The translations under genes and the position numbers were made by a program. Positions 247 to 557 of a stretch of DNA of 33,388 bases are shown piece by piece. The notes beneath the pieces are model-generated. The model did no database searches. It saw only the letters and a list, made by a program, of their open reading frames with translations, and was not told the origin of the DNA. The stretch covers positions 1-33,388 of the forward strand of contig CALUQS010000025.1 in NCBI GenBank assembly GCA_944322975.1. Direction: 5' to 3'. This DNA is from Candidatus Gastranaerophilales bacterium (lineage in GTDB: Bacteria; Cyanobacteriota; Vampirovibrionia; Gastranaerophilales; Gastranaerophilaceae). Positions within the stretch are counted from its first letter, which is position 1. Each line of letters starts with the position of its first letter.

Positions 247-301
247 ATATACAAATCTCATTGATAATTTGGGGTATCTCAGTTTGCAAGCAAAAATAAA
301 A

Positions 302-428
302 TTGCACTTTTTTGCACCTAATTGCACTGGCTTAAAATAGACTTTGCGGGCGGATTATACCCTGAAACAAGTTCAGGGTGACAGGATTTTAGTGCAAAAG
401 AGTGCAAGAATTGAGTAAATGAGTGCAA
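302..428. repeat. Phased TTGCAC / GTGCAA hexamer array
   Basis: TTGCAC occurs at 302-307, 312-317 and 322-327, exactly 10 bp apart. Its reverse complement GTGCAA occurs at 392-397, 402-407 and 423-428, with steps of 10 and 21 bp. The 12-mer GAGTGCAAGAAT is repeated at 400-411 and 421-432. Steps of 10 and 21 bp place the sites on the same face of the helix, as expected for cooperative protein binding. The binding protein is unknown; the upstream HTH antitoxin is one candidate. Confidence 0.55.
359..379. repeat. Palindromic element, 8-bp perfect arms
   Basis: ACCCTGAA (359-366) and TTCAGGGT (372-379) are perfect inverted arms around a 5-base loop, followed by GACAGG. No T-run follows on either strand, so it is a poor terminator. 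The form (CACCCTGAACTTGTTTCAGGGT-like on the minus strand) resembles short intergenic palindromes scattered in many bacterial genomes; that resemblance is from memory. Confidence 0.55.
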
Positions 429-557
429 GAATAGACCGGTACATCTCAATACTAAAAAACAGCCTCAATCGTGCTGTCTGTTTGATTTTTTATTAAAATT
501 TCCCCGTCTCAATGTCCCAGACACCTATTAGTGCGGTTGGTGCATAGTTTTTTTAAT

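Follow-up and report, generated by a model that had tools for sequence, protein, structure and literature searches.

What does a phased array of short DNA boxes do behind an antitoxin gene rather than at its promoter? In the window, by which we mean the whole stretch of 33,388 nucleotides analysed here, a check of the sequence places TTGCAC at 302, 312, and 322 on the forward strand and GTGCAA at 392, 402, and 423, exactly where an earlier note had reported them. Chance does not account for this arrangement: six boxes within 130 bp were found in 0 of 1,000 dinucleotide shuffles of the window (the largest number was three), the 10-bp-phased triple was likewise found in 0 of 1,000, and no 6-mer of the window other than TTGCAC recurs at three exact 10-bp steps. 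The perfect palindrome described between the two sets is an inverted repeat, with 8-nt arms at 359-366 and 372-379, but it is not gapless, as a 5-nt loop separates the arms. We consider it highly probable that these boxes lie within the conserved right end, at 254-530, of a family of Mu/Tn7-like DDE transposons that would work by the mechanism proposed below.

The conserved block is larger than first noted, at about 277 bp, and read outward it occupies 254-530 on the forward strand; the two halves of a profile match the window at 254-330 and 390-530, and 28 full copies were aligned. Near its inner edge are two forward-strand ATCTCA words, the first (255-260) a putative transposase-binding repeat that recurs 42 bp inside five of six left ends, the second at 276-281. 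The TTGCAC boxes follow on the same strand at 302-307, 312-317, and 322-327, with majority frequencies of 1.00, 0.97, and 0.96 among 69 aligned copies. A 62-bp loop (329-390) of near-fixed length and variable sequence, with a majority frequency of 0.62 and other loop sequences among the 28 copies, contains at 359-379 a CCCTGAA..TTCAGGG hairpin, which matches confined to the loop identify as a dispersed repeat of these genomes. Beyond the loop, on the reverse strand, are the GTGCAA boxes at 392-397, 402-407, and 423-428 (0.99, 1.00, and 0.99 in the same 69 copies), then a third forward ATCTCA at 443-448, in a region (439-460) conserved at 0.83, and a degenerate fourth repeat, GTCTCA, at 506-511 (forward). 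The right terminus, 521-530 on the forward strand, ends in CTATTA before host DNA, as judged from the boundary in relatives and from a homologous terminus, TATAG.., that carries a target duplication in two of them (G058 and G021). Across the whole assembly of this organism, TTGCAC-N4-TTGCAC with zero mismatches occurs at four sites, three of them inside the block.

When window positions 255-480 were used as a query, 64 of 99 genomes (its own counted) gave a match, many of them to the loop hairpin only. Both halves are present in 73 copies, 72 from MuA loci plus the window copy, and their starts are separated by 133-137 bp in 67 of the 73; four copies with large insertions were left out of the alignment as too long, leaving 69. 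Phasing is retained in relatives, where the boxes are the best-conserved part of the aligned copies: box frequencies are 0.96-1.00, versus 0.58-0.84 for the spacers between boxes and 0.62 for the loop, all three boxes on each side are exact in 46 of 69, and the first TTGCAC lies 88-90 bp from the first GTGCAA in 62 of 69, figures to be read as descriptive rather than as independent trials, as some copies built the search profile and the copies share descent. A loop that is near-fixed in length and free in sequence favors a protein on one face of the DNA over an RNA stem, and the conservation pattern is consistent with the same-face protein binding that had been suggested. Two insertions into the block were also seen. 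One, of 93-94 bp and possibly a tiny mobile repeat, sits at one identical position directly after the third GTGCAA box in L039, L048, L196, and L213; the other, of 59 bp, separates TTGCAC boxes 2 and 3 in copies of different families (L037:10900-11035 and L043:12870-13005).

In relatives, the block adjoins an operon encoding MuA (PF09299, 603 aa), a TniB/MuB-like ATPase (PF05621/PF13401, 226 aa), a third protein that we call the selector (mostly 164-189 aa), and a roughly 132-aa HTH protein. Seven aligned MuA queries were searched against GTDB genomes and the best 80 of 218 relatives were taken, mostly from Gastranaerophilales or uncultured gut or rumen MAGs and including relatives from the genus of the window. 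Seventy-three of these 80 loci had at least 900 bp 5' of muA and form the denominator for block counts. In 72 of the 73, the block profile matches upstream of muA (both halves in 60, one half in 12), and the start of the block is no more than 300 bp from muA in 45. The block profile found no match at 13 other MuA loci, with MuA identities of 49-56%; upstream of muA in three of the more distant operons (L096, L100, and L105), other repeated and inverted words, ATTACCTGA and TCAGGTAAT, were seen by eye at the place of the TTGCAC boxes. TniQ was matched in 0 of 8 genomes, with controls equally without a match, and was absent from the nine proteins of the G058 element.

In 59 of the 72 loci, the block terminus (partly extrapolated) is no more than about 260 bp from a tRNA or tmRNA gene, and in all 59 the 3' end of that gene points toward the block. 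Twenty kinds of target are represented, led by tRNA-Ile(GAT) with 18 loci and including tmRNA with 7; of the 13 loci without a tRNA gene within 260 bp, three have one farther away and ten have none on the stretch examined. The insertion distance is loose, from about 3 to 203 bp by the same partly extrapolated terminus. Where the target is tRNA-Ile, the point at which the block meets a shared native flank differs (L014 versus L026; L020 versus L146), so that the terminus is an insertion boundary and its exact position is loose. Of 16 stretches, 7 have a full block with the tail of a second one, truncated at its 5' side, directly behind it; new insertions into a resident right end would give this pattern. 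Extra copies of the tRNA-Ile 3' half were found at G034:C2:21627-21677, G031:C7:10309-10351, G031:C21:2307-2349, and G030:C11:19921-19962; copies of this kind usually signal tyrosine-integrase islands at that tRNA.

Complete elements were delimited in two relatives. For the element next to the tmRNA gene of G058, comparison with the empty site in G048 (L306) located both ends and a TTAGC duplication: at the right end, host sequence ..TTAGC is followed by TATAGGTTTTCAGGAC.., and at the left end ..GTTAAATTACA is followed by TTAGC and host. This element is 16,756 bp long. In an element at tRNA-Lys in G021, 17,772 bp long, the same left end runs into CGCAT, and CGCAT stands before the right terminus as well. 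Inverted termini with a 5-bp target duplication, as in Mu/Tn7-type ends, are thus present in both. The earlier proposal that the array marks the end of a small mobile element therefore holds as to the end but fails as to the size, which is 16.8 and 17.8 kb in these two relatives.

L236, L245, and L256 also have exact left ends, and L227 has one with two mismatches; L236 and L245, two of the four elements with both ends located, show no matching duplication, which counts against the transposon reading. TTGCAC is absent within 500 bp inside the six left ends, where GTGCAA occurs once (in G058), and ATCTCA lies 42 bp inside the terminus in five of the six, a counterpart of the ATCTCA repeats at the right end. 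L256 has two elements stacked head to tail: roughly 350 bp upstream of muA, 5 bp separate a left end from a right end (..TTACA, TATAG, TATAGG..). A blind duplication scan of 55 loci, most stretches of which reach only 10 kb, gave three loci at no more than three mismatches, no excess over a control that averaged 0.21 hits per locus; its best candidate, L212, was discarded because it lies in coding-like sequence. No duplication was found over about 40 kb in G070. Attempts to place left junctions by synteny in G070, at tRNA-Ile, and at the locus of the window gave none, as native flanks were too variable or had no match, and the stretches examined held no second block piece on the far side of elements. 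Two other ideas were dropped: a CTTGAY-N17-GATKAAT motif 5' of muA as the transposon end, as by eye it also turns up at internal gene starts and resembles a promoter, and the block as a junction of two elements, as it occurs whole in single elements.

All six boxes are present in the window copy, whose terminus is at 530. Its 5' neighbor, at 1-246 on the forward strand, is the HigA-like antitoxin gene, which is truncated by the contig start and would be cargo (PF21716, E 3.2e-12, and HTH_3, with TIGR02684 just under the cut-off). On the other side, GTGCG at 531-535 would be the expected target duplication; its left copy was not found by a search of the organism's own assembly that performed at chance level. 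The copy precedes a terminator hairpin at 556-589 that is native to the site: its arms are visible, and a similar hairpin stands at the homologous place in several block-free relatives of the genus. Several results count against the transposon-end reading of the window copy. No tRNA gene lies in the window, and the block is present at this locus in 0 of 22 genus relatives. The organism's own assembly, which is 85% complete, contains no MuA at E 1e-20 and no detected left end for the window copy, and its tRNA-Ile locus, on contig 85 (L141), has no block in the 150 bp inspected. The most plausible reading of the window copy is still a right end, whether intact or a remnant, that carries antitoxin cargo and sits at a tRNA-free site, and we propose that the left part of the element is off the contig or was lost; the junction at 530 may also be an assembly join. 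Farther on, 591-1418 on the reverse strand encodes a secreted-looking protein of 275 aa with a HEALH motif and no match in Pfam or NCBIfam.

If tRNA genes are chosen by a protein, the third gene of the operon is the likely place to look. A structural model of the selector (mean pLDDT, 90.1) has a winged helix at residues 1-53 and, at about 67-169, the SAM-like core-binding domain of tyrosine integrases, after which the protein ends, leaving it without a catalytic domain. Pfam PF14659 was matched in 30 of 31 selectors at E values up to 0.01, and a PDB profile search likewise supports these domains. Foldseek with the model gave a best E of 0.0079 and no match below 0.001. VIA gave Z 13.5 for the C-part against an integrase core-binding domain; for the N-part as a winged helix its Z values reached 7.8, short of what the tool regards as safe.

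Across 50 loci, C-part identity is 0.754 within a target and 0.381 between targets, compared with 0.837 and 0.803 for MuA and 0.816 and 0.771 for the N-part, which is conserved like MuA. Because its C-part tracks the target better than MuA does, the protein is the likely target selector. When MuA was collapsed at 90%, only 15 loci remained, which counts against the selector reading; the nearest neighbor shared the target in 5 of 7 cases by C-part and in 0 of 7 by either N-part or MuA, and a residual test gave 42 of 5,000 permutations. Among 36 less redundant loci, with the T-arm of L252 wrongly delimited, the C-part, given MuA, had a partial correlation of 0.23 for the T-arm and 0.31 for the anticodon arm (0 of 5,000 permutations in both cases). 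The T-arm therefore does not stand out from the anticodon arm. One selector class of 11 serves tmRNA (5), Ser (3), and Lys (3), with CGYGGGTTC T-arms in 10 of 11, and Asp and Gly targets share CGCGAGTTCGAGYCTCGTC, but T-arms are mixed in the other multi-member classes (14 and 8 members). Also counting against the selector reading, selectors 98-99% alike were found at Ile, Leu, and Arg genes. Overall, comparison of these proteins leaves the C-part well supported as the putative target reader. In the distant MuA operons L096-L108, the gene after muB has a similar N-terminus and other C-parts, as if target modules had been exchanged: integrase domains in L096, L100 (weakly), and L104, a core-binding domain alone in L106, and no Pfam match in L097, L098, L107, and L108.

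We propose a Mu/Tn7-like DDE element comprising MuA, the TniB/MuB-like ATPase, the selector, the HTH protein, and cargo; that such elements insert just 3' of tRNA and tmRNA genes is shown in relatives. The ATCTCA repeats, present in both ends, would bind the transposase. The TTGCAC/GTGCAA arrays, seen in the right end only, would form a docking array on one face of the DNA, and the element protein docked there would mark the right end and orient insertion. That protein would most likely be either the selector, with its winged helix on the boxes and its core-binding domain on the tRNA gene, or MuA. The first choice yields a modular adapter, in which the winged helix reads the array and an exchangeable core-binding domain reads the tRNA or tmRNA gene. 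We advance this only tentatively. It is attractive in tying the right end to the tRNA gene and in explaining constant orientation; it would account for a right end that faces the tRNA and for boxes that stay fixed while targets change, and it would allow the MuA/TniB machine to be retargeted by one small domain swap, needing neither TniQ nor a guide RNA.

About as likely is that the same right end binds MuA through its boxes, as a transposition enhancer or operator, and that orientation comes from the transposase and ATPase rather than from the selector. Phage Mu has such a MuA-bound internal enhancer/operator. Where the boxes are unchanged, MuA is always conserved, and the 13 MuA operons without the block, three of which carry other paired words (ATTACCTGA and its complement, by eye) in the same place, fit this possibility as well. 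Against it, the boxes are absent from the left end, where MuA must also bind; conservation gives no decision, the selector N-part being as conserved as MuA.

The remaining explanations fare far worse. That the block is an operator or attachment site of the HigBA unit, merely carried along by transposons, is very unlikely. Whether the block travels with the antitoxin, as the earlier note had asked, has a mixed answer: higA or its 3' end precedes it in 10 of 28 aligned copies, and higBA-block units occur in tandem, but 18 of 28 copies have other neighbors, the block lies 3' of higA and not at its promoter, and it starts close to muA in the 45 loci counted above. The antitoxin-operator interpretation is therefore not supported. 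By eye, the higBA-block units still carry the start region of muA on their upstream side and give the impression of remnant right ends. Nothing turned up in favor of a remnant origin, the third possibility raised in the earlier note. We give barely any credence to a block that encodes a guide RNA matching its target tRNA gene, in the manner of type V-K CAST homing spacers. Many tRNA genes do serve as targets, the loop has the constant length and free sequence noted above, and window 290-440 folds better than shuffles (z -3.2). However, the longest exact match between element and target exceeded the best control in 0 of 59 cases (means, 7.81 versus 7.34) in a test blind to mismatched or distant spacers, no Rfam family was found and nothing came near a gathering score, and more than one loop type occurs at tRNA-Ile. 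An integron-type attC site of a cassette array has next to no chance of being correct: gene-block arrays do run about 0.9-1.2 kb apart in one orientation, but 0 of 99 relatives passed the integron-integrase cut-off, 5-bp duplications are present in G058 and G021, and the left boundaries of units vary.

The right-end reading sets these elements among several known systems. Phage Mu has internal DNA sites that help transposition, and it resembles them in its MuA- and MuB-type proteins and 5-bp duplication; unlike Mu, they are targeted to tRNA genes and carry a selector and cargo, and no phage body was seen. Those tyrosine integrases that use tRNA 3' ends share the core-binding domain and the tRNA-gene target, whereas the selector here is without a catalytic domain and insertion, which produces a 5-bp duplication, falls beyond the tRNA gene. 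Attachment sites at tRNA genes are also known for Tn7-like transposons, namely CAST types I-B2, I-D, and V-K (PMC11406308, PMC10293859). These are alike in TnsB/TnsC-type machinery, oriented insertion downstream of tRNA genes, and cargo, but choose the tRNA by TnsD/TniQ or a guide RNA, while the candidate selector here is another kind of protein and TniQ was not found in a weak test. Selectors derived from tyrosine recombinases, as here, are described for TnsF of Tn6022, which targets comM, and for Tsy, in PMC10293859. As characterized there, TnsF has a zinc-finger N-part, an inactive catalytic domain, a TniQ partner, and comM as its target; the selector here lacks that zinc-finger part and catalytic domain, consists only of a winged helix and a core-binding domain, and has tRNA/tmRNA targets and MuA/TniB partners. 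A literature search, with subscription papers mostly outside its scope, returned no MuA/TniB element with a winged-helix/core-binding tRNA selector and this right end. Tn7-like elements at tRNA sites and tyrosine-recombinase-derived selectors are both known.

Targeted DDE transposons are studied as tools for DNA insertion and as carriers of defense genes. If the adapter proposal is true, the tRNA target could be changed by swapping a core-binding domain of about 100 residues, a protein-only, swappable targeting system, and a right end that docks the same selector would offer a direct test of how orientation is set in Tn7-like elements. The elements would also explain the stacks of toxin-antitoxin and defense genes behind tRNA genes in gut Gastranaerophilales. 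In relatives, their cargo comprises genes of these kinds. The cargo at G058:C83:12883-22982 includes a type I restriction system made up of HsdM, two specificity proteins, and HsdR, and hipBA together with a 179-aa, catalytic-only tyrosine recombinase (PF00589) recurs near the far side of tRNA-Ile elements in G034:C2:2051-5985, G023, G050, and G037.
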